DNA of 12,662 nucleotides from an uncultured Ruminococcus sp. (GTDB lineage Bacteria; Bacillota; Clostridia; Oscillospirales; Acutalibacteraceae). The notes under the pieces were generated by a model. The model did not search any database, was not told where the DNA came from, and worked only from the letters and a program-made list of their open reading frames with translations. Shown here piece after piece: positions 1 through 12,662 of this stretch. Numbering within the stretch: position 1 is the stretch's first letter; each line of letters begins with the position of its first letter. The translations under genes were made by a program, and so were the position numbers. The stretch covers positions 1 to 12,662 of the forward strand of contig USJJ01000012.1 in NCBI GenBank assembly GCA_900554995.1, read 5' to 3'.

Positions 1-3000
1 AGTACAATTTTCAATAATTACCGCACTGCCCGAATTGTGAACAGCCAGAATACCTGCGGAAACCGTATTCACCCTTTCGGAAACAACCTTTGCACCGCGG
101 ACATTTACATTTTTAACAGTAAGTCCTGTATCGGCAAACGTTCTGCCGACAACCGCAGACGCAATACCGGCTTTAACGGTTACATTTCTGACCTCGGCAC
201 CGTCGATCTGCGAACCGAATCCCGATGCGATTCCGCCCGCAACAAAAGCGGCTGAATCGGAAACCGTAGAAATTTCTGTGCCGATAATATTAATCTCGGA
301 AAGGGAACTCTCGCCCTTACCTGCCGCAACGCCCGATACTTCGGACATGCCCTTGATGTCGGAATCGGATACGGCAACGGATTTAACTGCAAGTTTGCCG
401 TCCATAAGACCGATCAAACCTGCAACATACTCTGCACCGCTGAGTTTTACCTTTTCAATATTTATACCGGCAACGTTTCCACCGCAAGCCGCATAGCCTG
501 CAAACGCACCGACGTAATTTGCCTTTGAATTGACGGAGCTATCCGTTACACTGATTCCGCTTGCGACAATTGAACCCGAATCAACGGAACCTGCTATCAG
601 TCCCGAATAAATTCCGTCTGCCGAAACCTTGCTGTTTGTAACGGTGATATTCTCAAGCTTTGTGCTGCCGATAACCTGACCTGCAAGAACAGCCGCATAA
701 ATGCCCTTCGCGCTAACATCCGCAGAAGAAATCACAAGATTATTAATCTCCGCACTATCAAGTGATGCAAAGAGTCCGACCTTTGATGTGCCATTAATCC
801 TGAGATTTGATATTGTGTGACCGTTTCCGTTAAATTTGCCGCTGAACGGAATGAGTGTTCCGCCGATCGGTGCAAAAGAGGTGATCACCGACATATCAAT
901 ATCAGACTCAACAACAAAGCTCGCTTTGTTAAGCTCGGAGATGTTTTCGCTGATATATGCAAGGTCATATGCAGTTGCAACAATATAGTTGCCTGCGCTG
1001 TCCTTTTCAAGTCCGTTTGAAACCTTAACGGTTGTGTAAAGACCCGTCTTTTTATTAGTAACTGTTACGGCACATCCCTTTACGGTAACAACACCTGCCG
1101 CACGGCTGACTTTGAGGACAACCGAGCCGTTCTCAACCGCAACACTTGCTGAAAGCAGTGACGAATCACAGCTTACGGAGTAATCGGATGAAGCCGAGTC
1201 AAGCATAGCCTTGACTGACGGCAAATCTGCGACAAACTTTCCGCCGTTGCCGGTGAAGAAAGCAACCTCGCCGTCATTGAATGACCACTCACTGAACTGA
1301 GCCTTGTCAATAAAGCTGTACTTTGCAAAATCAATGGCAGCCTGAGTGCCTTTACTCATATATATATCGGAAACATTCACTTTCTTTGCCGTAATATCGG
1401 CGATAAACGAATACTTTCCCGCATCATTTTTGCCCGAAACATAGCAATCGGAGATGCTGACGTTTTCAGCCTTGATCGATCCGATAAAGCCTGCAGCATT
1501 TGCTACTTTCTTCGACGAGCCGATGTTTGCACAGGCACCGCTGTTTGTAATAACGGTACCGCTGCCGACAATCGAGCCCGCGAGTGCACCGAAATTCGTT
1601 GTGTCTGCGGCAATGACAACATCCGCTTTGACACGGCAGTCGTTGAGCTTGCTCTCACCCGCAATCGTGCTGAACATCACGCCCGAGTTTGCTCCCGAGG
1701 CGTTGAATTTCGCACCGCTTGTAACGCTGACGCCGACATTGCTAACCTCAGCGCCGACAGCCCTGCCGAACAGAGACGAAGAAATATCTGTTTTTGCAAC
1801 GAAATCTACATTTTTAAGTATACCGCAAAGCTCGGTGAACACCGGTGCGGCAACATTGACCGTATGACCGTTACCGTTGAACGTTCCGTTAAACTCAAAA
1901 GCGGAGACATTTACTGAAATATCCTTATCAAGCTCAACATGGATTCCGTGTGCATATCGAAGCATATTGAACTCCGAGGAATTTGTGATTGTAAGCGGAT
2001 CGGAAGAAGTTCCGTTTCCGTTCGCCTTTGCCGAAACAACAAGGATCGGTATATTGAAATTCTGAGTAACCTTGAGATTTCCCGTTCCGACTGATGACGG
2101 AAGTGAAATTTCTGCGGCATAGCTAAGTCTGCCGACTGTATCGGCGCTTACGCCCTTAATCGTTGCCGAATTTGAATCGGAGGAAAGGGCAAGTCCGTCT
2201 CCCGACTTTGAGAATCCGCTATTAACGGCAATGCTCGCCTTGCCCCAAGACGCCGAAAGATCTGAGGCGTATACCGTTGCCGTTTCGCCGACCTTAACTG
2301 TTTTGAAGCGAAGTGAGTCTATATCGTTTACGTCCGCACCGTAATCGGTTACGGAATTTGACCTTGCGCTGACGGCACTCGACCAGTAGCAGTCAACGAG
2401 CATATCCTTTGTTGCACCCGATCCGACAATTCCGTTGCCCGATGCCGGACAATTGAGCGCAACAAGCACGTAGTTATTTACAATCCTTGCACTCTTTGCC
2501 GCAGTACCTGCGATACCACCGACCGTATCCGTTGATTTACCTCCGGTGACATTACCCGAGGCAAAGCTGTTTGATACAGTACCCGAGGTCGATCCGGCGA
2601 TGCCGCCGTAAACGGTCTTACCCGAAAGCGATGAATTGATAAACTCGCCGACATTGATTGCAGATGCGCCGGTTATCTTTCCGCTGTTGCTTCCTGCGAC
2701 AGCGCCGATGATGCCGTTTCCGCTGATTGTGTGTGACGTTGCAGATGCGCCGCCGACATTCGTCTGAGTTCCGACAACCTTAACCTTGCTGACGGTTCCT
2801 CTGTTTACCGCAACAACAAGACCTGCGTTCGTAACCTTTTTCATTGTGAGAACAGATTTAACAATTGAGCAGTCGTAAATCGTTCCGTCGTTCTCTGCCG
2901 CAAGAATTGAACAGTTTCCCGCATCTGTATTTACGCTCATCACACTGTTTTCAACGGTAAGATTTTTAATTGTTGATCTTGAATTGATATATCCGAACAG

Positions 3001-3531
3001 AGCAAAGTTTTCACCCTTGCCGAAAGCAACATTCAGTCCCTTGAGCTTGTGTCCGTTACCGTCGAGGACGAAGCAGACATTCTTTGAGGATGCGCTGAGA
3101 GTCTTGCTTACAGAAATCAACGAGCCTGCGTAGACCGAATTTGAGGTGAATTTATCTGCACCAATGTCGGAAAGATCAATATCGTTTGTGAGCACAAAAT
3201 ATTTGTTTGCGCTTGTTGTGAGATTAATCTTGTCCTGCATTTTGAGGAGATCGTCAACATCGGAAATTCTGTAAGGATCGGCAACGGTGCCGCTTCCCTT
3301 TTCCTCTGTTGTGAGTGTTCCGCCCTCGGTTGCTACCGTTGTTGTCGAAATCGCTCCGCCCTCCTGCGAAACAGTCGTGGATCCTTTTTCAGTGGCGGCA
3401 GAGACCGTGGTTGATGTGCCGGATACACTACCATCGTTGACAGCCAACGACGATGCTATTCCGGTTGATGACAGCAACATTGCAACGCTGAGCAACGTCA
3501 CCGCAACCCTTTCTAATCTCCTTTTAATCAT
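1..3531 (-). CDS. Large secreted GLUG/GNGHT-repeat surface protein, C-terminus beyond window
   Basis: The frame is open from an ATG at 3531 to base 1, giving at least 1177 residues with no stop, so the C-terminus lies outside. GGAGG at 3539-3543 sits 7 bases before the ATG and fixes the start. Residues 1-30 are a Sec-type signal peptide (MIKRRLERV, then a hydrophobic stretch AVTLLSVAMLLSSTGIA). A Ser/Thr/Gly-rich linker runs to about residue 82. Three long modules follow, starting near residues 83, 497 and 838. Each opens with a segment of the type 'DPYRISDVDDL' and 'NDIDLSD' and contains a GNGH turn: LDGNGHKL at 156-163, FNGNGHTV at 551-558, FNGNGHTI at 900-907. Between them are many short V-x-G-x-x-A-G blocks like the GLUG motif. 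These features are typical of beta-helical surface adhesins of Clostridia. No anchor or sorting signal can be judged because the end is missing. It is the last visible gene of the proposed fibre locus and may be a tip or adhesin; that role is inferred. Confidence 0.85.
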   Translation of the reverse strand, partial: MIKRRLERVAVTLLSVAMLLSSTGIASSLAVNDGSVSGTSTTVSAATEKGSTTVSQEGGAISTTTVATEGGTLTTEEKGSGTVADPYRISDVDDLLKMQDKINLTTSANKYFVLTNDIDLSDIGADKFTSNSVYAGSLISVSKTLSASSKNVCFVLDGNGHKLKGLNVAFGKGENFALFGYINSRSTIKNLTVENSVMSVNTDAGNCSILAAENDGTIYDCSIVKSVLTMKKVTNAGLVVAVNRGTVSKVKVVGTQTNVGGASATSHTISGNGIIGAVAGSNSGKITGASAINVGEFINSSLSGKTVYGGIAGSTSGTVSNSFASGNVTGGKSTDTVGGIAGTAAKSARIVNNYVLVALNCPASGNGIVGSGATKDMLVDCYWSSAVSARSNSVTDYGADVNDIDSLRFKTVKVGETATVYASDLSASWGKASIAVNSGFSKSGDGLALSSDSNSATIKGVSADTVGRLSYAAEISLPSSVGTGNLKVTQNFNIPILVVSAKANGNGTSSDPLTITNSSEFNMLRYAHGIHVELDKDISVNVSAFEFNGTFNGNGHTVNVAAPVFTELCGILKNVDFVAKTDISSSLFGRAVGAEVSNVGVSVTSGAKFNASGANSGVMFSTIAGESKLNDCRVKADVVIAADTTNFGALAGSIVGSGTVITNSGACANIGSSKKVANAAGFIGSIKAENVSISDCYVSGKNDAGKYSFIADITAKKVNVSDIYMSKGTQAAIDFAKYSFIDKAQFSEWSFNDGEVAFFTGNGGKFVADLPSVKAMLDSASSDYSVSCDSSLLSASVAVENGSVVLKVSRAAGVVTVKGCAVTVTNKKTGLYTTVKVSNGLEKDSAGNYIVATAYDLAYISENISELNKASFVVESDIDMSVITSFAPIGGTLIPFSGKFNGNGHTISNLRINGTSKVGLFASLDSAEINNLVISSADVSAKGIYAAVLAGQVIGSTKLENITVTNSKVSADGIYSGLIAGSVDSGSIVASGISVTDSSVNSKANYVGAFAGYAACGGNVAGINIEKVKLSGAEYVAGLIGLMDGKLAVKSVAVSDSDIKGMSEVSGVAAGKGESSLSEINIIGTEISTVSDSAAFVAGGIASGFGSQIDGAEVRNVTVKAGIASAVVGRTFADTGLTVKNVNVRGAKVVSERVNTVSAGILAVHNSGSAVIIENCT

Positions 3532-3538
3532 AGTAAAA

Positions 3539-3543
3539 CCTCC
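3539..3543 (-). promoter_or_regulatory. Ribosome binding site of the GLUG protein gene
   Basis: GGAGG on the minus strand, 7 bases upstream of the ATG at 3531. A strong hairpin (3545-3587) ends one base before it, so access to this site could depend on that structure. Confidence 0.8.
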
Positions 3544-3544
3544 A

Positions 3545-3587
3545 CTGTTTCCGATATGCCGACTCCACGATATCCGCATATCGACAG
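3545..3587 (-). other. Inverted repeat (hairpin) abutting the GLUG gene ribosome site
   Basis: CGATATGC (3552-3559) is perfectly complementary to GCATATCG (3576-3583). An outer CTGT (3545-3548) pairs with ACAG (3584-3587) across a 3-base bulge, giving 12 pairs with a 16-base loop. There is no T-run after it in either direction, so it is not a typical intrinsic terminator. It fills most of the 85-base gap after the coiled-coil gene. A role in mRNA processing, stability or translation control is possible but not shown. Confidence 0.6.
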
Positions 3588-3616
3588 AACATTGTATCTG
3601 ATTATCTTAACGTATA

Positions 3617-5902
3617 TCAGCCGTTCTTGGCAGCCTTATCCGCCTTGAGCTTTGCTTCCTTTGCCTTTGCTCGCTCTCTCGCAAGGCGCTCCTGCTCCTT
3701 AGCTTTTGCTCTTGCTTTCTCACGAGCTATACGTTCTTTTTCTTTTGCCTTTTCTTTAGCCGCACGCTCCTGCTCCCTGATCTTCTCACGGGCAATGCGT
3801 TCTTTCTCTTTGGTTTTTTCCTTGGCAATTCGCTGTTTTTCGGCCTCGGCGGCTCTCATCTTTGCGATGCGCTCCTTTTCCTTAGCCTTTGCCTTTTCTC
3901 TTGCCGCCTTTTCTTTTTCTTTCGCCTTTTCCTTGGCTATGCGCTGTTTCTCTGCCTCCGCAGCCTTTGCCGCTACCGCTTTTTCCTTTGCTTTTTCACG
4001 GGCTATGCGGTCTTTCTCGGCCTGTGCGGCTTTTGCTTCGGCTTCCTTTTGCTTAGCTTTTTCTTTAGCTATGCGATCTTTTTCAGCCCGGGCAGCTTTT
4101 ACGGCAGCTTCTTTCTGCTTTGCTTTCTCTTTTGCAAGACGTTCTTTTTCTTTAGCCTTTTCCTTGGCAACACGCTGTTTCTCTGCCTCAGCAGCTTTAG
4201 CTTTTGCTGCTTTTTCCTTTGCCTTTTCACGGGCTATGCGGTCTTTCTCAGCCTGTGCAGCTTTTGCGGCAGCTTCTTTTTGCCTTGCCTTTTCTTTTGC
4301 GAGGCGTTCTTTTTCAGCCTGAGCAGCTCTGGCTCTGGCAATTGCCTCTTTTTCTCTCTTCTTTGCGGCGGCCGCCTTTTCCTTGGCTTTTTGAGCGGCA
4401 AGCTCTTTTGCTTTGCGCTCTCTTTCCTTTGCCTTGGCTTTGGCTGCCTTTTCTTTCTCTATCTGAGCGAGCTTTGCGGCTTTCTCCCTTGCTATGCGCA
4501 TCTCTTCACGCTGCTTTTCTTTTGCAATACGAGCTTCTTCCTGCGCTTTGAGCTTTGCCGCTCTCTCTTTTTCCTTTCTGGCTTTCTCTTTTGCAAGCGC
4601 CTTTTCCTTGGCAATTCTTGCTTTCTCTCTTTCCTTTTCTCTCTTGAGTCTCTGCTTCTCTTTTTCTTTCTCTTTTCTTGCACGCTCTTTTTCGCGTGCA
4701 ATACGACGGCGCTCCATCTCTTTTTCATGAGCGATTTTCGCCTTAATTTTATCTTCAATGGCTTTCTTGCGTGCATTCTCTGAATCAAGAGCACGCTGAA
4801 TTGCCTCCTGAATCTTCTTCTCGCCCTCAATCTTCTTGCGACTTACGCGTTTAACCTCATCGACAAAAACTCTCTGGATTTCGACTTCTTCCATATCATA
4901 GTCCATAACGAGCTCTTCTGCCAATCTCTTGAGAAGTTTCGGCTTAATCTTACGCTTTTTCTGCTTACCGACTGAATCCTCGGAGAGGGTGTTTGCCTTG
5001 AGCATCATATAGTTCATTGCGGTCATGCGGTTAAGCTCATTCATATACTCCGCACTGACCATATCGTTTGATTCTTTAACCGTTATCTCATAGCCCAACT
5101 CATTGTATGACTGAATAAACTGCCATAATTTAAGGCAAGCTCTGAAATTCGGATTCTTCTGAATCGCATTTGTTCTCATTATCGGAGGTCTTACCGGTAC
5201 GCAGTTTCTCAGCTCTTTCATAAACGAAGAGTTCGCATACTCGTTTATGATCCTCTTAACTCTTTCGATACGCTGGAACGCTGTTGCGTTTTCTCCCTCG
5301 GGGCCTGCTTCGCCATCAATGTCGCTTCCTGCCGACTGAGCGGAAACTTCCAGCTTGTACTGTATCTTTTCGCGTCCACGGTTGAAATCGCTCTCCATTT
5401 TGAGCGACGCCATATTATCATCATCAGAGATATTGAAAAGGACGTTATATCTTACATCAATAAATCTTACAAGGTTCTGCATAAGGGTGTAAACAAATCT
5501 GTTTTCATAAACCTCATAGCTTTCCTCACGGAAAACGTTGAGAATCTGGTTCGGAGTAACATCGTCGCCCTCAACCTTGGCAATCATATTTGTATGCTGA
5601 GCAAGATGGCGGATTGATTCATTTGTGATCTTTCTCGCACGCTCGATCGGAACAATTTCCTCTTCCTGAACGATAAACTTTCTCGGAACACGAATAATAT
5701 TGTCAAGGGGAATTATGCACGCTTCGATCTCCTCGACCCACTTAAGGTCGATCTTTTTATCAAAATATCTGTTGAACAAGGAATAGCTGTTCGTACCGCT
5801 GTTGATAGCAGTATTCATCTCGTCATAAAACTCGTTATCCGCTGTCGCCGACGCAAGATAATCCTTGTATTCAAGATATAATTCAAGATACGATTTGTTC
5901 AT
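3617..5902 (-). CDS. DUF2357/McrC-partner-like head fused to a ~400-residue charged coiled coil
   Basis: 761 residues; ATG at 5902 with AGGGG (5912-5916) 9 bases upstream. Residues 1-300 are a folded head with motifs I associate with DUF2357/PDDEXK_7 proteins, the usual partners of McrB-like ATPases: VPIERARKITNESIRHLAQH (84-103), EESYEVYENRFVYTLMQNL (126-144) and PPIMRTNAIQKNPNF then LKLW (239-260). In those families a PD-(D/E)XK nuclease normally follows. None is visible here. From about residue 352 to 755 the protein is almost entirely Lys/Glu/Arg/Ala, with recurring AEKDRIAREKAKEK-like blocks, and should be one very long coiled coil or single alpha-helix. A 77-residue tandem unit (11 heptads or 7 hendecads) is visible. 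No signal peptide or membrane segment, so probably cytoplasmic. It lies 44 bases after the ATPase gene and is likely its partner. Family assignment is from memory of motifs, moderately sure; a filament or scaffold role is inferred. Confidence 0.7.
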   Translation of the reverse strand: MNKSYLELYLEYKDYLASATADNEFYDEMNTAINSGTNSYSLFNRYFDKKIDLKWVEEIEACIIPLDNIIRVPRKFIVQEEEIVPIERARKITNESIRHLAQHTNMIAKVEGDDVTPNQILNVFREESYEVYENRFVYTLMQNLVRFIDVRYNVLFNISDDDNMASLKMESDFNRGREKIQYKLEVSAQSAGSDIDGEAGPEGENATAFQRIERVKRIINEYANSSFMKELRNCVPVRPPIMRTNAIQKNPNFRACLKLWQFIQSYNELGYEITVKESNDMVSAEYMNELNRMTAMNYMMLKANTLSEDSVGKQKKRKIKPKLLKRLAEELVMDYDMEEVEIQRVFVDEVKRVSRKKIEGEKKIQEAIQRALDSENARKKAIEDKIKAKIAHEKEMERRRIAREKERARKEKEKEKQRLKREKEREKARIAKEKALAKEKARKEKERAAKLKAQEEARIAKEKQREEMRIAREKAAKLAQIEKEKAAKAKAKERERKAKELAAQKAKEKAAAAKKREKEAIARARAAQAEKERLAKEKARQKEAAAKAAQAEKDRIAREKAKEKAAKAKAAEAEKQRVAKEKAKEKERLAKEKAKQKEAAVKAARAEKDRIAKEKAKQKEAEAKAAQAEKDRIAREKAKEKAVAAKAAEAEKQRIAKEKAKEKEKAAREKAKAKEKERIAKMRAAEAEKQRIAKEKTKEKERIAREKIREQERAAKEKAKEKERIAREKARAKAKEQERLARERAKAKEAKLKADKAAKNG
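3925..4267 (-). repeat. 231-bp tandem repeat inside the coiled-coil coding region
   Basis: The segment around 3925-4036 recurs 231 bases further on at 4156-4267. The best-conserved 57-base blocks (3980-4036 and 4211-4267) differ at only three bases, and both encode KAAQAEKDRIAREKAKEK. The period is 77 codons, which keeps both heptad and hendecad register. It looks like an in-frame duplication within a larger field of degenerate repeats. Confidence 0.75.
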
Positions 5903-5946
5903 TCAGTATGTCCCCTTTGACAAAAGTTGTGATAACGGTTTCGGGA

Positions 5947-7494
5947 TTACATAAGTCTCTTAAGGAGCTGGAGATATTCCTTACACTCGTTCATATTTGC
6001 TTTACCGAAGTGCTTATTGAGATATGTAACAAGTCCGTCGATTTCGTCACGGATAAACGAAAGGTTCAAGCTCTCAAACTTACGGAAAACCTTCTTTGCA
6101 AGAACGAAATCAATACCGTCGATCTCAGTTCCGCCGCATCCGACGTAAGCCGGAACAAACTCTTTAAGCTGCTTAACAATACGGTTACCGAAAGCAAGGC
6201 GGAAATGTTCAATAACATAGTCGTCAAGTTCCTCAATCTTCTTGAGGTTTTCGTCTGAAACTTTATATTTGGTCTGGCACTCAAGGAACATGCCCTCAAG
6301 GTGCTTATAGCTGAGGTTGAGCTCCTCTGTGTACGGAGCCTCAAAGAACTTACCCTTACTGTTAAGGTCGATCGGAATAGCACGGTCATAAACCTTATCC
6401 GAAACGGCGAATGTCGAGTCATCGTTATTGATCGTTCCGATATACCACATATTCTCGGGGAGCTTAAGCTTACCGTCGATAATGTGTTTTGGGTCTGTTG
6501 GCCATACGCTCGGAACAAGTGATACAACCCACTCGTCACGTGACGGCATTTCGAGAATTGAAAGAAGCTCTGCAAAGTAATACTCAACACGAGCAATGTT
6601 CATCTCATCAAGAACGGTGATGAAAATTTCCTCTTTAAATGTTGCCTCGTACATCTTTTTGAGAACTTCGGTCTCGTTGAAACGTTTTGTAAATTCATTG
6701 AAGTAACCGAAAATCTCGGTACGGTCACGCCACGACGGCTGAACCGATGCGATTGTAACCGGGTTTTTGAGGAATTTACCCCAAGCATAAGCAAGCGAAG
6801 TTTTACCTGTACCGGAAATACCCTGAAGGATAATAAGTCTTGTTGATGCAAACGCCGAAAGGAAAAGGCGGATGATCTTTATTTCATAGAAAAGACCGAG
6901 ACGCGAGCAGGCAAAGTTACGGAATCTTTCGCAGATCTCCGGAAGGGTGATCTCATTGTCGAAATCGGGAGCAACATAGTTTTCAATCTCAAGGTCAACC
7001 TGAGTACATTTATAGAATCGGCTGTAATCGTCGGCAGTTTTGTCGACCTCACCGTCCTTTTTCTCCTCTGTGCCCTCTTCTTCTCCCTCTTCATACGGAC
7101 TTTCGCCGGGATTGAGGCCGAGCTGTGAGACCTTCATTGCGAGGATTCTTTCTTTTTCATTATTGAGCTTTATAACCTCACGGTTAAGGTTGCCGACCTC
7201 CATAAGGAGCTCTTCCTGATCAACAAGAGTCTTTCTGACTCTTACATACTTTTTAATAAGAACAACGACCAAAATAACTATCGCAGCAAGCACCGCAACA
7301 GTTGCGATGACCGCAACGATGGCAAGAAGCCAGTCAACAATTGTGAACTTGCCCGACCAAGCCTTAAAGATTTTTATGTACTGCGGAATGTTAAAAATAT
7401 TGGCAATTCCCAAGCCGATACCTTTAAAAATACCCCAGACACCTTTTACGAAAAACTGATTTAAAAATTCTGCAAGGAACTTTGTGATTGTCAT
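5947..7494 (-). CDS. Membrane-anchored McrB-like AAA+ ATPase
   Basis: The open frame starts at a GTG (7503), but GAGG (7504-7507) is 9 bases before the ATG at 7494, so I take that ATG (515 residues). Numbering here counts from the GTG. Residues 1-50 are hydrophobic and amphipathic, then a 30-residue membrane span at about 54-83 is followed by the basic KKYVRVRK. A short helical linker (90-125) and an acidic stretch (134-160) lead to the AAA domain. Walker A is GISGTGKT (228-235), Walker B FITVLDEMN (294-302) followed by VEYYFAELLSILE, and sensor-like GTINNDDST (356-364) is followed by DRA (373-375). The VQPSWRDRTEIFGYFN segment (254-269) is typical of McrB-like AAA_5 proteins. It most probably hydrolyses ATP or GTP and remodels a partner. 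True McrB proteins work with a nuclease and carry DNA-reading N-terminal domains; this one has a membrane anchor instead and sits beside a signal peptidase gene. Specific substrate unknown. Confidence 0.85.
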   Translation of the reverse strand: MTITKFLAEFLNQFFVKGVWGIFKGIGLGIANIFNIPQYIKIFKAWSGKFTIVDWLLAIVAVIATVAVLAAIVILVVVLIKKYVRVRKTLVDQEELLMEVGNLNREVIKLNNEKERILAMKVSQLGLNPGESPYEEGEEEGTEEKKDGEVDKTADDYSRFYKCTQVDLEIENYVAPDFDNEITLPEICERFRNFACSRLGLFYEIKIIRLFLSAFASTRLIILQGISGTGKTSLAYAWGKFLKNPVTIASVQPSWRDRTEIFGYFNEFTKRFNETEVLKKMYEATFKEEIFITVLDEMNIARVEYYFAELLSILEMPSRDEWVVSLVPSVWPTDPKHIIDGKLKLPENMWYIGTINNDDSTFAVSDKVYDRAIPIDLNSKGKFFEAPYTEELNLSYKHLEGMFLECQTKYKVSDENLKKIEELDDYVIEHFRLAFGNRIVKQLKEFVPAYVGCGGTEIDGIDFVLAKKVFRKFESLNLSFIRDEIDGLVTYLNKHFGKANMNECKEYLQLLKRLM

Positions 7495-7503
7495 TTCGGT
7501 CAC

Positions 7504-7507
7504 CCTC
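7504..7507 (-). promoter_or_regulatory. Ribosome site that places the ATPase start at 7494
   Basis: GAGG on the minus strand directly touches the GTG at 7503 but is 9 bases from the ATG at 7494, a normal spacing. This favours the internal ATG. Confidence 0.6.
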
Positions 7508-7542
7508 TGTTTTTATTGTTTTATATTTTTATGAGTTGAATG

Positions 7543-8289
7543 TTATGTGTCTTCTTTGCTTTCCTTATCGGATTCTTCCTGTTCTTTCTTTTGCTGAGCA
7601 AGGTATTCCTCGATAACACGCTGTTTGGATTCCTCATCAATGTTGCCTGCAAGACTCTCAGCCTTTGCGGTCATAAACATTGAAATCAACTTGTAAATCT
7701 GCCAGATAAAGAAAAGCGCAAGCGGAATTATAATGCAAATCATAAAGCCTGTTCTGCTCTGTAGGAAGTTAAGTGCGGATCCGAAGTTTGCAATCTTCAT
7801 TCCGGTCAGCTTTTTGCCGTTATCGTCAATTCCCGAATTAACCTGTTTTGCAATAACCTCGTCGGGAAGAACATTGACCGCATCTTCCATACCTACTGCA
7901 TCACCCATTGTCACGAACGCATAGACCGAATTGTCTGCCGCACGTTCGATATCTATAATTCTATGGGTGTTGTATCCACGAATTTTTTTGCCGGGCTTGT
8001 CGCTCTCAATAACGGTCGAATAAGTAATTACATCGCCGACCTTGAGCGTCTCGGGATCCTTAACCTCCTTGGAGATTATCAGATCGCCCGAGCCGAATCC
8101 GGAAGGTTCACCGGAATCCATTGAATCAGACTGGACGGCAAAAGGTGTATATCCCAAGACATTGCCTATTCCCATATCCGAGTTTTTTGAGGTAAACGTC
8201 ATAACCGTGATAATAATTGCTATTATAATAATTATAATAAGCAATATATCTGAGATGACACCCCAAATACTTTTCCCTTTTTCGTTCAT
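7543..8289 (-). CDS. SipW-like (ER-type) signal peptidase I with extended acidic tail
   Basis: 248 residues; ATG at 8289, with GGAG (8303-8306) a rather long 13 bases upstream. A first membrane span lies at about 13-30. The catalytic serine is in VQSDSMDSG (S55, followed by M56). The second catalytic residue should be His in NTHRI (H108), since SipW/ER-type (S26B) enzymes use Ser-His in place of the Ser-Lys of ordinary bacterial signal peptidases. A later AFVTMGDA box (124-130) matches the family's GDA region. A second span lies at about 181-203, then a 45-residue tail rich in Glu, Gln and Lys that SipW of Bacillus (about 190 residues) lacks. SipW processes TasA-type fibre subunits, and the neighbouring gene at 9417-8497 encodes such a substrate. 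The gene follows a terminator-like hairpin, so its expression may be lower than the subunit's. Confidence 0.88.
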   Translation of the reverse strand: MNEKGKSIWGVISDILLIIIIIIAIIITVMTFTSKNSDMGIGNVLGYTPFAVQSDSMDSGEPSGFGSGDLIISKEVKDPETLKVGDVITYSTVIESDKPGKKIRGYNTHRIIDIERAADNSVYAFVTMGDAVGMEDAVNVLPDEVIAKQVNSGIDDNGKKLTGMKIANFGSALNFLQSRTGFMICIIIPLALFFIWQIYKLISMFMTAKAESLAGNIDEESKQRVIEEYLAQQKKEQEESDKESKEDT

Positions 8290-8321
8290 TATGTAACATT
8301 CACTCCTGTAATTTTTTACCT

Positions 8322-8370
8322 AAAAAGGTCATTTGCCGACACACACTGTGTGCAGACAAATCGCCCTTTT
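8322..8370 (-). terminator. Imperfect terminator-like hairpin after the TasA-like gene
   Basis: Three stacked complementary blocks: AAAAGG (8323-8328) with CCTTTT (8365-8370), ATTTG (8331-8335) with CAAAT (8357-8361), and a CACAC/GTGTG core at 8342-8352, separated by small internal loops. On the minus strand it ends in CCTTTTT, as in a weak intrinsic terminator. The SipW ribosome site follows within about 20 bases, so any termination must be partial or SipW would not be transcribed. Confidence 0.55.
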
Positions 8371-8417
8371 AGCCGATGACAGCCAACAAATAAGGTGATA
8401 TCTTTTTTCAGGGCCAC

Positions 8418-8456
8418 GGGTGACGCCGTTTCCGACGTCACCCTCCCAAAGTGACG
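8418..8456 (-). other. Competing stem-loops just downstream of the TasA-like gene
   Basis: GGGTGACG (8418-8425) and CGTCACCC (8436-8443) form a perfect 8-pair stem with a 10-base loop. The middle arm can instead pair with GTGACG at 8451-8456. There is no T-run, so this could protect the 3' end of the subunit mRNA or act as a switch; neither is shown. Confidence 0.55.
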
Positions 8457-8496
8457 GGTTAATTCGGGATCAAAGATCCGTCAATCTTGAAACAAA

Positions 8497-9417
8497 TCAG
8501 TCTATTTCAAGAACAAGGTTGAAGTTAATGGTCGAACCTGCAACATCGTTTGCACAGTCAACATCATTACCTTCCATCCACATATAAACTCTCATACGAG
8601 TGATGCCGGCTGCAACATTGATTTTGGCTGCAGATGCAGTTGTTGCAAGGGTTGCAAAAAGTTTATACGAATTTGAACTTACTATATTGGGATAGTCCGT
8701 CCTACAGCTGATTCCAGTGCCGGCGTTTGATATAGGGTTCGTTGTCATTATTCCGCTTGCTCCCAATAACTGAGCTGCAGTAGTATGGTTGCTTGCATCA
8801 ACTTCATAAACAACCTTTCGAGCATCGGTGTTCGGCGGCAGTACGCTTTTAATTGCAGAAGCCTCTGCATTCTCCTGTACTGTGCCACAGTTAACAAGTG
8901 CAATTCTCATTGCGGTCGGAAGCTCCGCGTTTCCTTCGCAACTTACACTTGAAGAACCGAACTTAACCGTTGTCGCACTTTTAACCTTGATAAAAAGATC
9001 AAATGCAACAAAGCCACTAAGAGTCTCATCCACAGAATGAATATCCATTGTTCCTTGATCATTTATCGCTCCATCAAACCAATACGGAAGAGCATCTTTA
9101 GTATCAAATATTGATGATGACGGTTTAACTGTTGTAGGAACATTATTAATATTTCCGGTATAAGCGTTAAAACGCTTGCCGCCGGCTGTCTCGTCTGTGC
9201 CCTTAATGTTATCAACCGTCAGCTTCGTTGTGAAGGCAGATGTGTTAGCAGAAATCTGGATGCCTTCAGGTGATGTGACGTTCAATTCCATGGACTCGAC
9301 TTCAACTCTTTTTGCCATTGAGAACCATGCATATGTAGCTGATGTCAAAACGATAGCAGATACGATAAGCATTGCAATGGCAGAAATGAAAGCGCGCTTT
9401 TTGAATGTCTTTTTCAT
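8497..9417 (-). CDS. TasA/camelysin-like secreted fibre subunit with SipW-type signal peptide
   Basis: The frame could begin at an ATG at 9432, but GGAGG (9426-9430) overlaps that codon and lies 8 bases before the ATG at 9417, so the protein starts MKKTFKKRAF and has 306 residues. A basic n-region and hydrophobic core (about 10-26) lead to LTSATYAWFS. By analogy with Bacillus TasA (TWA followed by AF), cleavage is expected after A30, exposing WFSMAKRVEVES. The mature part has few charged segments and many Ser/Thr/Asn/Val residues, as expected for a beta-sandwich. A middle stretch FVAFDLFIKV and the C-terminal MRVYMWMEGNDVDCANDV are also present, in similar form, at the end of the stalk protein encoded just upstream. 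It is the most likely substrate of the neighbouring SipW-like peptidase and a probable fibre-forming surface protein; polymerisation is inferred from the family. Confidence 0.8.
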   Translation of the reverse strand: MKKTFKKRAFISAIAMLIVSAIVLTSATYAWFSMAKRVEVESMELNVTSPEGIQISANTSAFTTKLTVDNIKGTDETAGGKRFNAYTGNINNVPTTVKPSSSIFDTKDALPYWFDGAINDQGTMDIHSVDETLSGFVAFDLFIKVKSATTVKFGSSSVSCEGNAELPTAMRIALVNCGTVQENAEASAIKSVLPPNTDARKVVYEVDASNHTTAAQLLGASGIMTTNPISNAGTGISCRTDYPNIVSSNSYKLFATLATTASAAKINVAAGITRMRVYMWMEGNDVDCANDVAGSTINFNLVLEID

Positions 9418-9425
9418 TATCTTTA

Positions 9426-9430
9426 CCTCC
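9426..9430 (-). promoter_or_regulatory. Ribosome site that places the TasA-like start at 9417
   Basis: GGAGG on the minus strand overlaps the upstream ATG at 9432-9430 and is 8 bases from the ATG at 9417. The earlier ATG therefore cannot be the main start. Confidence 0.8.
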
Positions 9431-9446
9431 ATAAAGATTTCATGCC

Positions 9447-9471
9447 TTGGCGACCGTTAACGCGCCGCCAA
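9447..9471 (-). other. Inverted repeat upstream of the TasA-like ribosome site
   Basis: TTGGCG (9447-9452) pairs with CGCCAA (9466-9471) around a 13-base GC-rich loop. It lies about 17 bases before the ribosome site in the untranslated gap. It has no T-run. It could be a protein-binding site or an mRNA stem. Confidence 0.45.
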
Positions 9472-9484
9472 ACGCATAATTTAT

Positions 9485-9510
9485 ATCCGAATTGTCATAG
9501 AATTCCGGAT
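9485..9510 (-). other. Strong bulged hairpin between stalk and TasA-like genes
   Basis: ATCCGAATT (9485-9493) pairs with AATTCCGGAT (9501-9510): nine pairs with one bulged base and a 7-base loop. No T-run follows on either strand, so it is unlikely to terminate. A candidate for mRNA processing or stabilisation of the downstream subunit message. Confidence 0.5.
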
Positions 9511-9547
9511 AAGCATAAAGTTTCTTTGAATTTGATTAGAATGGGAC

Positions 9548-9569
9548 AAACTTCCCGTCACGTAAGTTT
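9548..9569 (-). other. Inverted repeat overlapping the stalk gene stop codon
   Basis: AAACTT (9548-9553) pairs with AAGTTT (9564-9569) around a 10-base loop; the TAA stop is at 9570-9568. An alternative GGGA/TCCC pairing overlaps it (9543-9556). Weak, with no T-run. Confidence 0.35.
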
Positions 9570-11241
9570 ATACAAAATCATAATCAAATTTCATTGAGAG
9601 CTTAATGCTTCCACCGAGAATGTCATTGACGCAATCAGGATCCCAGCCTTCAAGCCACATTACTATCGTATATTTATGATAGTTGCCGGCTTTTGTAAGA
9701 ACGTTCTTATCCTGCATAACCGTTGAATCGTTTATGAACAGCTTATCGTCCTTATCATACTTATCATTGATATCAAAGACATCACTTGTTCCCCTCTTTG
9801 GCTTTGCATAAATCGTTGGGGTACCGCCGTCTCTGATAACCATAACTCTCACTGCCTCGTCCGCATCAAGTTTTACGGACTCAATCTGAAGATTCGCCGT
9901 ATAGTTGACGTCGACGTCTCCCACGTTCTTAACATAGAAAGTATAGGCAAAGAATTCTTTTCCGTTGGAGCGGTTATGCGAACCGTCCACACTGTCAAGC
10001 TCTGTTGCAGACGGAAGCCACGTATATGTACAGTCACCCATATCATTCACGCTTGCTCCGCTGAGAACCGCCTTCATATCGGTAAATTCCTTCGATTCCG
10101 AAAGAAGAAGTCCTCTTGTCTGCTCGGACTTGTTTATCATTGCGGTAAAATCACCGGTATCCGTAACGCTTGTCTTGTTTTCGACAATTTCGCGAATACT
10201 TGTAACCTCGCTGACGCTGGTTACGGGAACAATCGTGGTTACCTCAATTTCTTTAATAATTTCCTTGATAACTTCGACTTCCTTGATGACTTCCTTAATA
10301 ACCTCTTTTATCTCCTCGACCTCACGGATACTCGTAACTTCGCTGATGCTGGTTACAACGCTCGGAACCTCACGAATGCTTGTGACTTCGCTGATGCTTG
10401 TTACCGGAACAATGCTTGTCACATCAATAAATCTTGTGACGTCATTGTATCTTGTCACATAGCTCGGGACCTCGCTGATTCTTGTTACATCGCTTACCCT
10501 CGTTACATCGCTGATTCTTGTAACGTCACTGATTCTCGTGACGTCGCTTACTCTTGTTACATCGCTGATCCTCGTTACATCACTGATTCTCGTGACGTCG
10601 CTGATCCTCGTAACATCACTGTATCTTGTAACGTCCACGGGTCTGACGCTTGTAACTTCTCTCTCGACAGTGTTGATAACCGTTTCAATTCTCTCAACAC
10701 GCTGTTCGATAACTCTCGTTACTTCCTGAATCCTTTGAAGAGTTGTAACTCTTACGCTCGTTACCTCACGGATGCTTGTAATCTCTCTTGCCGTCGAGGT
10801 CTGATCTCCGATATCAATATCGGCATCAAGAATCTTGTTGATGTCATCTCTGATTCCTCTGAGCTTTTCTTTAATAAAGCTGATCTGTCCGGGAGTGAGA
10901 TCAAGAGTGTTGATTGCTGTGCTGACAGCCTGAGTCTCCCTATCCATCTTATCAACAACTTTTTTTAGATCCTCAAAGCTCTTTATATCGTCAACATCGT
11001 CGAGCATTGCATTCTTTATCTGCTCGTCGTATTCTCTTCTTTCGTTTATGTATGAAGAGCAACCGAACATTACGGAAAGAAAAATCAGAAGAAGTACAAG
11101 GATAATAAGAAGAATCCTGATAATTGCTTCTCTCTTCTTTACTTTCTTGCTCTCTCTTCTGACACCGTATCGGCTCATACGGTCCTGCTCAGGGGCAGTA
11201 CCGTCGCCGTGAAGCTGTTTTTTTCTGTCTTTCTTAGCCAA
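9568..11241 (-). CDS. Membrane-anchored stalk protein: coiled coil, hexapeptide repeats, TasA-like C-terminal domain
   Basis: The frame opens at a GTG (11250), but AAGGAG (11250-11255) overlaps it and lies 8 bases before a TTG at 11241, which I take as the start (MAKKDRKKQ, 557 residues). Numbering here counts from the GTG. A basic 43-residue tail precedes a membrane span at about 44-63. Residues 68-150 look helical. Residues 151-357 are built of repeats with a hydrophobic residue every third position: nine tandem VTRISD-type hexapeptides at 207-260, then VTSISE/VTSIRE and VIKE variants. The C-terminal domain (about 360-560) contains FFAYTFYVKNVGDVDVNY and MWLEGWDPDCVNDILGGSI, resembling the TasA-like subunit encoded next. 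The orientation is most likely N-in, C-out with an uncleaved anchor. This would suit a base or tether for the fibre (inferred). I know of no named family covering the whole protein. Confidence 0.78.
   Translation of the reverse strand: MAKKDRKKQLHGDGTAPEQDRMSRYGVRRESKKVKKREAIIRILLIILVLLLIFLSVMFGCSSYINERREYDEQIKNAMLDDVDDIKSFEDLKKVVDKMDRETQAVSTAINTLDLTPGQISFIKEKLRGIRDDINKILDADIDIGDQTSTAREITSIREVTSVRVTTLQRIQEVTRVIEQRVERIETVINTVEREVTSVRPVDVTRYSDVTRISDVTRISDVTRISDVTRVSDVTRISDVTRISDVTRVSDVTRISEVPSYVTRYNDVTRFIDVTSIVPVTSISEVTSIREVPSVVTSISEVTSIREVEEIKEVIKEVIKEVEVIKEIIKEIEVTTIVPVTSVSEVTSIREIVENKTSVTDTGDFTAMINKSEQTRGLLLSESKEFTDMKAVLSGASVNDMGDCTYTWLPSATELDSVDGSHNRSNGKEFFAYTFYVKNVGDVDVNYTANLQIESVKLDADEAVRVMVIRDGGTPTIYAKPKRGTSDVFDINDKYDKDDKLFINDSTVMQDKNVLTKAGNYHKYTIVMWLEGWDPDCVNDILGGSIKLSMKFDYDFV
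10471..10632 (-). repeat. Nine tandem 18-bp units encoding VTRISD hexapeptides
   Basis: Nine consecutive in-frame units encode V-T-R-(I/V/Y)-S-(D/E). The DNA copies vary mainly at synonymous positions, so the protein pattern is better kept than the DNA, which suggests selection on the structure. Looser copies continue on both sides through roughly 10183-10800. Confidence 0.9.
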
Positions 11242-11249
11242 GCCGATCA

Positions 11250-11255
11250 CTCCTT
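11250..11255 (-). promoter_or_regulatory. Ribosome site overlapping the EAL stop codon; sets the stalk start at a TTG
   Basis: AAGGAG shares bases with the TAA stop (11256-11254) of the EAL gene and is 8 bases from the TTG at 11241. Translation of the two genes is probably coupled. Confidence 0.65.
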
Positions 11256-12000
11256 AATTGATTTGTTTCTCTTTTATCGCCTCGCCGAAATACGAACCCG
11301 TAAATTGGTCGGCTCCCATCTTGTTGAGAAGATCAAACATTTCCTTGGATTCAATTCCGTCGACTCTGACCTGCGCATCAATCTTCTTGCAGAAATCAAT
11401 AATACCCTGCACGGCATTCTGTACTTTTTCGCTGGTCATAATTCCGTCGAGCAGACTCTTGTGAAGTCCGATATAATCGACATCATAATGAGCAAGGTGT
11501 GTCAGCGAGGTATACTCAAGTCCGAAATCATTGATCGAAACCTTGAGACCCATCTCTCTGAAAGCGGTTATGTTTTCCATAACCTGATCCTTGACTGCTT
11601 CAAGAATACTTTCGTTTATATCAAAGCAAAATCTGTCGGGTGAAACAGAATGTTTGTCCAATATTTTTTTAACCTGAGTGACGAAATTTTTCTTTGCAAA
11701 ACTTTTAACGGAAATTTCCACGATAATTGAGTTCAGATCGGCCTCTCTCTCCTCGCAGCGTTTGATCGCCTCGCATGCCTCTTCAATCTCCCAGAGATTA
11801 AGCTGAACAATCTGATTGGATTTTTCTGCAATCGGAACAAAGAGCTTCGGGAGCATAACCCCCATAACCTTGTCGTTTATGAGCATTGAGATCTCATAAT
11901 CTATCGCCATATTCAAATGAATGTCAAAGACCGGTCTGTATCTGAGCTCAAGAGTTCTGAGTCTTTTGCCCGATCCCGTATTCTTTTTGTTTTCAGCCAT
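11254..12000 (-). CDS. Degenerate EAL-domain protein (probable non-catalytic c-di-GMP or protein sensor)
   Basis: The frame extends to a GTG at 12009, but GGAG (12011-12014) is 10 bases before the ATG at 12000, so I start at MAENKK (248 residues). The whole protein is one EAL domain with no added sensor or membrane part. The family's landmarks are recognisable but altered: EALLR becomes EISML (36-40), FELTES becomes FDINES (126-131), DDFG becomes NDFG (157-160), the K of LKID becomes G178 in YIGLHKS, and AEGVE becomes VDGIE (213-217). Several metal ligands and the catalytic lysine are therefore changed, so c-di-GMP hydrolysis is unlikely. Inactive EAL proteins are known to work as c-di-GMP receptors or protein-binding modules. 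It is the first gene after the candidate promoter and is translationally coupled to the stalk gene, which fits a control role for surface structures. Confidence 0.85.
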   Translation of the reverse strand: MAENKKNTGSGKRLRTLELRYRPVFDIHLNMAIDYEISMLINDKVMGVMLPKLFVPIAEKSNQIVQLNLWEIEEACEAIKRCEEREADLNSIIVEISVKSFAKKNFVTQVKKILDKHSVSPDRFCFDINESILEAVKDQVMENITAFREMGLKVSINDFGLEYTSLTHLAHYDVDYIGLHKSLLDGIMTSEKVQNAVQGIIDFCKKIDAQVRVDGIESKEMFDLLNKMGADQFTGSYFGEAIKEKQIN

Positions 12001-12031
12001 ATGCGACACTCTCCATCATAAAAAATCCGCA

Positions 12032-12108
12032 AAAATTCCGTCTTGTGGTCGAATTTTAGGACAAATACAACATATTGTATGTTCGTGCAAAAGGGGGCAC
12101 TTGTCCCA
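12032..12108 (-). promoter_or_regulatory. Candidate structured mRNA leader upstream of the EAL gene
   Basis: Read on the minus strand, an outer stem (12108-12101 with 12064-12057, eight pairs including one G-U) encloses two hairpins. One is GTGC/GCAC (12085-12088 with 12097-12100) with an 8-base loop. The other is a perfect six-pair AACATA/TATGTT stem (12069-12074 with 12078-12083). This gives a three-way junction. It is followed at once by an A/T-rich stem (12057-12050 with 12040-12032, one bulge) running into TTTTT, like a weak terminator. I do not recognise a known riboswitch class. The same inverted repeats could instead be protein operators. Confidence 0.45.
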
Positions 12109-12132
12109 TTGACGCACTTTCACATATATATT

Positions 12133-12161
12133 ACTTTAACATATATAAAGAGAATAGTCAA
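12133..12161 (-). promoter_or_regulatory. Candidate sigma-A promoter of the fibre locus
   Basis: TTGACT (12161-12156, five of six consensus bases) and TAAAGT (12138-12133, four of six) are separated by 17 bases in an AT-rich tract on the minus strand. Transcription would start near 12126, placing the folded leader at the very 5' end of the message. Confidence 0.5.
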
Positions 12162-12212
12162 TATTTTTTTTATTTAAAAGTACAATAAATCGATTGTTTG
12201 TCCATTTTATCT

Positions 12213-12662
12213 TTAATTTATTTTACTCTGTTTTATTACCGTGTTCATCGCATTCAGAACCGACAGAATTATTTCGTTATCTCTTATAATTCCGTTGCTT
12301 TTTTTGCACATATATTCATAAAAATCTTTAGCCTCTTCGCTCATAAGAATATGCTTTTCAATCTCGCCGACAAGCACTTCTTCCGTTCCGTTTTCATAAA
12401 TTATTTTCACACCGGTGAGCTTTGAAATCGAACCGATCTTCATCGTTCCCTTGTCACCGATGATTTGCGATCCGCACCGATCCTGACCGATTTTTGAATA
12501 TGTCAGCGTGACTTGTTTGTCAGAGTAGTTGAGAATTGCCGATCCGTAACCGTCCGCCCCTGTGCTTAAAAAACCTGCCGTTGAAATGATTTCTTCCGGC
12601 TCGCCGAAGAAATCCACTGCCGGATAAAAACAATAAATTCCGAGATCACGCAAACATCCCGT
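12213..12662 (-). CDS. Gfo/Idh/MocA-type oxidoreductase, C-terminal part
   Basis: The last 149 residues of a protein whose N-terminus lies beyond the window; the frame continues upstream of the TTG at 12653 as T-G-C, so that codon is not a start. The visible TGCLRDLGIYCFYPAVDFFG matches the conserved start of the substrate-binding half of Gfo/Idh/MocA enzymes (commonly GG-x-L-x-D-LG-x-Y). DKGTMKI (78-84, counting from the TTG) is the usual 'G-x-x-G' strand turn of this domain. These enzymes bind NAD(P) with an N-terminal Rossmann fold not seen here and oxidise or reduce sugars or related alcohols; the substrate cannot be told from this part. It is separated from the fibre locus by 203 bases with its own promoter and is probably functionally unrelated. 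Confidence 0.85.
   Translation of the reverse strand, partial: TGCLRDLGIYCFYPAVDFFGEPEEIISTAGFLSTGADGYGSAILNYSDKQVTLTYSKIGQDRCGSQIIGDKGTMKIGSISKLTGVKIIYENGTEEVLVGEIEKHILMSEEAKDFYEYMCKKSNGIIRDNEIILSVLNAMNTVIKQSKIN

Follow-up and report, generated by a model that had tools for sequence, protein, structure and literature searches.

The stretch of DNA described here (the window) comprises 12,662 nucleotides from an uncultured Ruminococcus sp. (GenBank assembly GCA_900554995.1, contig USJJ01000012.1, positions 1 to 12,662) and carries a seven-gene block in which a TasA-like secreted subunit and a SipW-type signal peptidase stand next to a membrane-tethered, McrB-like AAA+ nucleoside triphosphatase (NTPase) and a DUF2357 (McrC-type) protein. 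An earlier note, made from the letters alone, had proposed seven co-directional genes of a possible undescribed surface-fibre system, and the seven were indeed recovered as open reading frames, all on the minus strand and separated by 3, 135, 207, 39, 44 and 37 bases in the order given below. The block is very probably a McrBC-derived, nuclease-free locus linked to a surface fibre, of a kind named CoCoPALM in 2024. Its genes and repeats are as follows:

11254..12009, minus strand: degenerate EAL-domain protein (251 aa; Pfam EAL, E 5e-47)
9568..11250, minus strand: membrane anchor (560 aa), with a hydrophobic segment and repeats
10472..10635, minus strand: 18-bp tandem array encoding six-residue stalk repeats of the type V-T-R-I/V-S-D (Tandem Repeats Finder and protein repeats)
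8497..9432, minus strand: TasA-like secreted subunit with a putative SipW-type signal sequence (311 aa)
7543..8289, minus strand: SipW-type, i.e. endoplasmic reticulum (ER)-type, signal peptidase (248 aa; TIGR02228 above cut-off)
5947..7503, minus strand: McrB-like AAA+ NTPase with an N-terminal transmembrane helix (518 aa; Walker A, Walker B and N-N-D-D intact)
3617..5902, minus strand: DUF2357 (McrC-type) activator domain with a basic coil of about 400 aa behind it
3873..4328, minus strand: 11/22-residue repeats inside the coil of the DUF2357 protein (repeat rows of 66 and 231 bp; autocorrelation at lags of 11 and 22 residues)
1..3579, minus strand: large secreted protein, of which the N-terminal 1193 aa are present before it runs off the window

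The seven genes do form a real block, and they do not stand together by chance. A genome scan gave at least 496 confirmed relatives, of which the best 80, picked by closeness to the query, were fetched, and neighbours were called by profiles on all six frames, on the same strand and within 10 kb of the ATPase (blastp gave lower neighbour counts, and the profile counts are used). The earlier note had made the association depend on the ATPase/DUF2357 pair recurring near SipW and TasA-like genes in related genomes, and it does recur: SipW and DUF2357 are each found in 78 of these 80 loci, a TasA-like or anchor gene in 68, an EAL gene in 31 and the large secreted protein in 15. All four misses fall at contig ends, with 16 and 575 bases left upstream of the ATPase frame in the two loci lacking SipW, and 126 and 1 bases left downstream of the ATPase in the two lacking DUF2357. 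In at least 53 of the 80 loci SipW is the gene immediately preceding the ATPase, and in some Bacilli loci unlabelled genes stand between the two.

Since the best 80 had been chosen by closeness to the query, a second sample of 197 genomes was drawn evenly from the order of one carrier, independently of such closeness. The ATPase profile matches 23 of them: 18 carry the window type, four a sister type only and one an ordinary type only, and two of the 18 also carry a second match, sister-like or ordinary. SipW is near all 18 window-type loci (L081-L096, L001, and L104, which is cut by a contig end), compared with none of the four sister loci (L097-L100) and none of the three ordinary McrB-type loci (L101-L103). 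A split of 18/18 against 0/7 has odds of about 2e-6 by hand calculation, although the loci share ancestry; with some two SipW-like genes per 2 Mb, the chance of finding one within 10 kb of a given gene is estimated at about 2%. Among the 18, five coincide with L001, L020, L021, L024 and L026 of the first 80, which leaves 13 new ones; L081-L084 are the same loci as L020, L021, L024 and L026, and some counts of tails, EAL proteins and conservation include them twice (counts over distinct loci are given where this matters), while the fragments G206:C16, G206:C7, G245:C32 and G133:C75 are not in the locus set. The loci were first split by the presence or absence of a transmembrane segment and then by ATPase type; the former split was rejected because the sister ATPases have, by eye, a different hydrophobic start of their own.

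The association is asymmetric. SipW-like genes occur in 79 of the 197 genomes, with 1 to 6 in each, and 61 of the 79 have no window-type ATPase; SipW thus exists without the NTPase, whereas a window-type NTPase without SipW was seen only at contig ends. (The SipW profile was built from SipWs beside such ATPases, which biases the top scores of these.) A DUF2357 search of the same genomes gave 22 matches in 20 genomes, 16 of the matches being in SipW-linked loci, three in sister and three in ordinary loci. Counting labelled genes only, the order SipW-NTPase-DUF2357 is kept in 79 of 94 distinct loci and rearranged to anchor-NTPase-SipW-DUF2357 in five (L044, L052, L067, L069 and L071); eight have no labelled gene upstream, five of them with at most 575 bases there, and two have none downstream. 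All 94 SipW-linked ATPases form one clade, with a support of only 0.63. In a family sample, 11 of 100 genomes gave a strong ATPase match and a twelfth a weak, partial one. In a phylum sample of 398 genomes, with at most three candidates scored per genome, the strong type was found in the centre genome only, so that the system is concentrated in certain lineages.

When the profile of the NTPase was compared with all solved chains in the PDB, McrB alone was matched (E 3.5e-7), and a single strong hydrophobic segment at residues 65-83, followed by a conserved segment (residues 87-132) that looks like a coil by eye, bears out the membrane-tethered, McrB-like ATPase of the earlier note. The segments taken as Walker A and Walker B are kept across 34 aligned sequences, and N-x-D-D is present in the NTPases of 94 of 94 distinct loci, although these letters fit NxxD as well and align with McrB without a gap, so that the motif alone cannot separate the two branches. 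As these segments and N-x-D-D are conserved, the enzyme should hydrolyse a nucleoside triphosphate (NTP), be it ATP or GTP. Conservation is highest in the AAA core (0.78, against 0.48 in the N-terminal part; 96 entries, including four duplicates). A protein search returned at least 8000 matches (all 8000 candidates scored passed), and the best 120 listed are at least 61% identical. One ATPase entry of 646 aa, P0049, has a long internal duplication of its AAA part, perhaps an assembly artefact.

Directly downstream, the window DUF2357 protein has a McrC-type fold. With the coil left off it matches DUF2357 above cut-off (E 6e-11), and at full length it obtains no score against Pfam; its profile found nothing meaningful among PDB sequences. 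No nuclease family was detected in this protein or in eight proteins of the same type, and a control McrC (L103) gave a weak PD-(D/E)XK match below cut-off. The DUF2357 assignment of the earlier note therefore holds, as does its giant coil within the window; the coil is, however, no constant part of the system, the tails being basic, neutral, acidic or nearly absent according to lineage and of unrelated sequence types. A basic coil serving as a nucleic-acid binder was considered and dropped, as the tails of relatives are neutral, acidic or almost missing. Among proteins 98-100% identical over their first 345 residues, coil lengths lie mostly multiples of 11 residues apart (8 of 11 listed lengths; window 3617-4828, relatives P0121-P0240), a spacing that would fit fast repeat slippage in a cytoplasmic coil. 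Acidic tails occur in the rearranged loci L067, L069 and L071. In nine Bacilli loci, including L065 (8937-9992), the gene immediately preceding the ATPase encodes a protein of about 350 aa, and the DUF2357 protein is almost coil-free; the L065 example has no Pfam family. In L007 (11583-13790) the DUF2357 gene is in two frames (141 and 586 aa), either broken or mis-assembled.

On the fibre side, the peptidase matches TIGR02228 above cut-off; the Bacillus SipW equivalog model of NCBI stays below its cut-off of 190 (65 bits, E 4.7e-18). S56 and H109 are invariant in 24 sequences, the best PDB matches are SEC11C and SEC11A, and on these grounds the window protein is classed as an ER-type signal peptidase with a Ser-His pair. 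For the TasA-like protein, no family model was found in Pfam or NCBIfam, curated TasA and camelysin models included; 41 members compared with NCBIfam gave three unrelated families with one member each, and the profile found nothing meaningful among PDB sequences. What speaks for the label is an A-W-F motif behind the signal helix, the same in all 41 sequences aligned, though a wider TasA-like profile finds A-W/Y-F in only 140 of 192 frames. A predicted fold speaks for it as well: of its seven best rows, six are subunits of fibres or cannulae, with moderate scores.

Anchor and TasA-like subunits fall into one single-linkage sequence cluster. The anchor is built of a short N-terminal tail, a hydrophobic segment (residues 46-64), an inserted repeat stalk of about 300 residues and a C-terminal domain belonging to the TasA-like cluster, and contains no A-W-F motif. 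Its relatives in the lists seen lack the insert and measure 224-348 aa, compared with 560 aa in the window; the repeat stalk announced earlier is thus a real 18-bp array, peculiar to the window among the fetched sequences. A homolog search with the anchor itself gave one irrelevant match among 7998 candidates, the repeats having probably filled the candidate list, and allows no inference on how frequent such stalks are. The large secreted protein has no Pfam family over cut-off, and its former description as a GLUG protein was not borne out: Pfam gave no GLUG match for it, nor for a relative of 2053 aa encoded in L001.

The EAL protein was correctly called degenerate: it keeps three of the eight catalytic residues. 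Across the loci, 46 EAL entries (two of them duplicates, hence 44 distinct ones including the window) divide into 37 that keep 0 to 5 of the eight residues, where counts of 0 may reflect poor alignment, and seven that keep all eight. The intact proteins are larger (frames of 766-816 aa) and belong to loci L085-L090 and L104; L086 and L090 also carry a second EAL protein with 0/8 catalytic residues. The window protein is probably a non-catalytic regulator, which hints at control by cyclic-di-GMP through an inactive reader.

Loci of this kind are not undescribed, as had been supposed: Bell et al. 2024 (eLife, PMC11090510) named them CoCoPALM in one paragraph and left them to a later paper. The features given there are a McrB-like NTPase with an FtsB-like N-terminal membrane and coil segment and an NxD signature usually followed by D or E, signal-peptidase neighbours, and a coiled-coil McrC homolog (PMC11090510). 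In the window we find the NxD signature and following D, the N-terminal transmembrane and coil segments, the signal-peptidase neighbour and the coil on the McrC homolog; the loci here differ in that this coil is nearly absent or of an unrelated type in some lineages. The main text of that paper gives no cargo beyond 'pilus assembly factors', and TasA, SipW and EAL do not occur in it as whole words (PMC11090510), whereas here we find TasA-like subunits together with an anchor and a degenerate EAL protein. In the literature covered, with most subscription journals outside the search, CoCoPALM was found only in the naming paper and its preprint, as was any work on McrBC, CoCoNuT, pilus assembly, FtsB and signal peptidase together; DUF2357 itself came up in five papers, these two included, nothing joined SipW with DUF2357, and nothing relevant by title or listing joined SipW with McrB or McrB with TasA. 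The locus therefore falls within a kind that received its name in 2024 and that, by the literature searched, has not yet been characterised. To this we add a probable cargo, consisting of TasA-like subunits and a same-family anchor, as well as the McrC fold, the lineage-differing coil tails, a mostly degenerate EAL protein and the sister group.

Three other known systems resemble parts of the block. The TasA-TapA-SipW operon of Bacillus subtilis likewise combines a SipW-type peptidase, secreted beta-rich subunits and an anchoring or nucleating partner (PMC9674648); as described there it has no NTPase, and SipW cuts TapA, while A-W-F is missing from the anchor here. No sequence-level match was found. 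McrBC Type IV restriction systems share the AAA+ McrB module and the DUF2357 fold of McrC, in contrast to which the present proteins are membrane-tethered and no nuclease or DNA-recognition domain was found. CoCoNuTs are coiled-coil McrBC derivatives in which the McrC nuclease is often lost; as reported, a link to HEPN or other nucleases is always present, as are predicted RNA-binding domains (PMC11090510), neither of which Pfam found in the window proteins.

The interpretation that we prefer, and hold with evenly balanced confidence, is that this is a CoCoPALM-type locus making and controlling a SipW-processed surface fibre. SipW would free the TasA-like subunits from their precursors, and these would polymerise outside the cell by strand donation, as TasA does (PMC9674648), with the uncleaved anchor as their base. 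In the cytoplasm, a McrB-type hexamer switched on by the DUF2357 domain would spend NTP at the membrane on building, positioning or releasing the bases of fibres, with the coil perhaps acting as a lineage-specific spacer or tether and the degenerate EAL protein as a regulatory reader rather than an enzyme. That the NTPase acts on fibre assembly or anchoring is plausible, and we place it just short of an even chance. More tentative, and clearly on the doubtful side, is the full picture of a McrBC machine shifted from DNA destruction to the envelope, in which an NTP-driven membrane ring with a McrC-type shaft would build, anchor or release TasA-type fibres. Were it true, there would be a TasA-type fibre system that runs on an NTPase, and the McrBC family would have a role outside defence. 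Should the NTPase prove to drive fibres, surface architecture would have taken over a module of restriction enzymes, and scans for defence genes in which these ATPases are flagged (PADLOC PDC-M26A) would be putting the wrong label on envelope machinery. With its small size, the conserved SipW-NTPase-DUF2357 core lends itself to in vitro work.

Several observations weigh against a fibre-driving NTPase. The assembly of TasA is described without any word beginning 'ATP' in the text of PMC9674648; the inner tail of the anchor is poorly conserved (0.25, compared with 0.47 outside), which also weakens the idea of this N-terminal tail as a handle for the NTPase; and the giant coil is nearly absent in Bacilli loci and of an unrelated sequence type elsewhere. 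The variable tail and coil speak for the most serious of the alternatives, which we consider unlikely: the NTPase pair would organise the cell, serving as a scaffold on the membrane or as a device for polarity or envelope stress, and would share its expression with the fibre genes without ever touching the fibre. A scaffold fitted to each cell could well have lineage-specific coils, and the sister ATPases stand near transglutaminase proteins with no SipW. Such a device does not readily account for SipW being missing only from loci cut off upstream, nor for its position directly before the ATPase in so many of them.

A role in defence, with a McrBC relative guarding the envelope against phage and the fibre as sensor, decoy or effector, is less likely again. 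The family is best known for restriction (PMC11090510), the system is patchily distributed within one family of genomes, and the PADLOC candidate model PDC-M26A matches the window NTPase at 2e-35; this model, however, matches all six McrB-type ATPases tested, the two fibre-linked ones included, and is thus not specific, and the eight DUF2357 proteins hold no nuclease family (neighbouring genes were not scanned singly for effectors). Somewhat more improbable still is a trafficking or quality-control AAA+ protein that works at the membrane, clearing or refolding the substrates of SipW, and builds no fibre: a membrane-tethered AAA+ protein does adjoin the peptidase and its likely substrates, but its partner is a McrC-type activator, not a protease or chaperone. 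A mere chance neighbourhood, for which no point was found, is already contradicted by the order sample and by a linkage that spans Clostridia, Christensenellaceae and Bacilli records, and hardly deserves credence.

The related sister ATPases (L097-L100) come from four genomes and have no SipW nearby. In the two loci scanned, L097 and L098, their neighbours are large proteins that contain a transglutaminase core, accompanied in L097 by MBG domains, and each of L098, L099 and L100 has a single DUF2357 gene between two ATPases. The link between NTPase and envelope may thus be older than that between NTPase and SipW, and, on the more tentative picture given above, the group suggests a wider class of envelope McrBC machines.

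Upstream of the seven-gene block lies the end of an oxidoreductase gene:

12213..12662, minus strand: GFO/IDH/MocA oxidoreductase, C-terminal part (PF22725, E 1.5e-6)

A megablast search of a phage collection with the window gave no match, and the nearest named relatives are Ruminococcaceae or Clostridia records. The oxidoreductase is probably a flank outside the system, and its relatives occur in 11 of 81 scanned entries (the 80 loci and the window).
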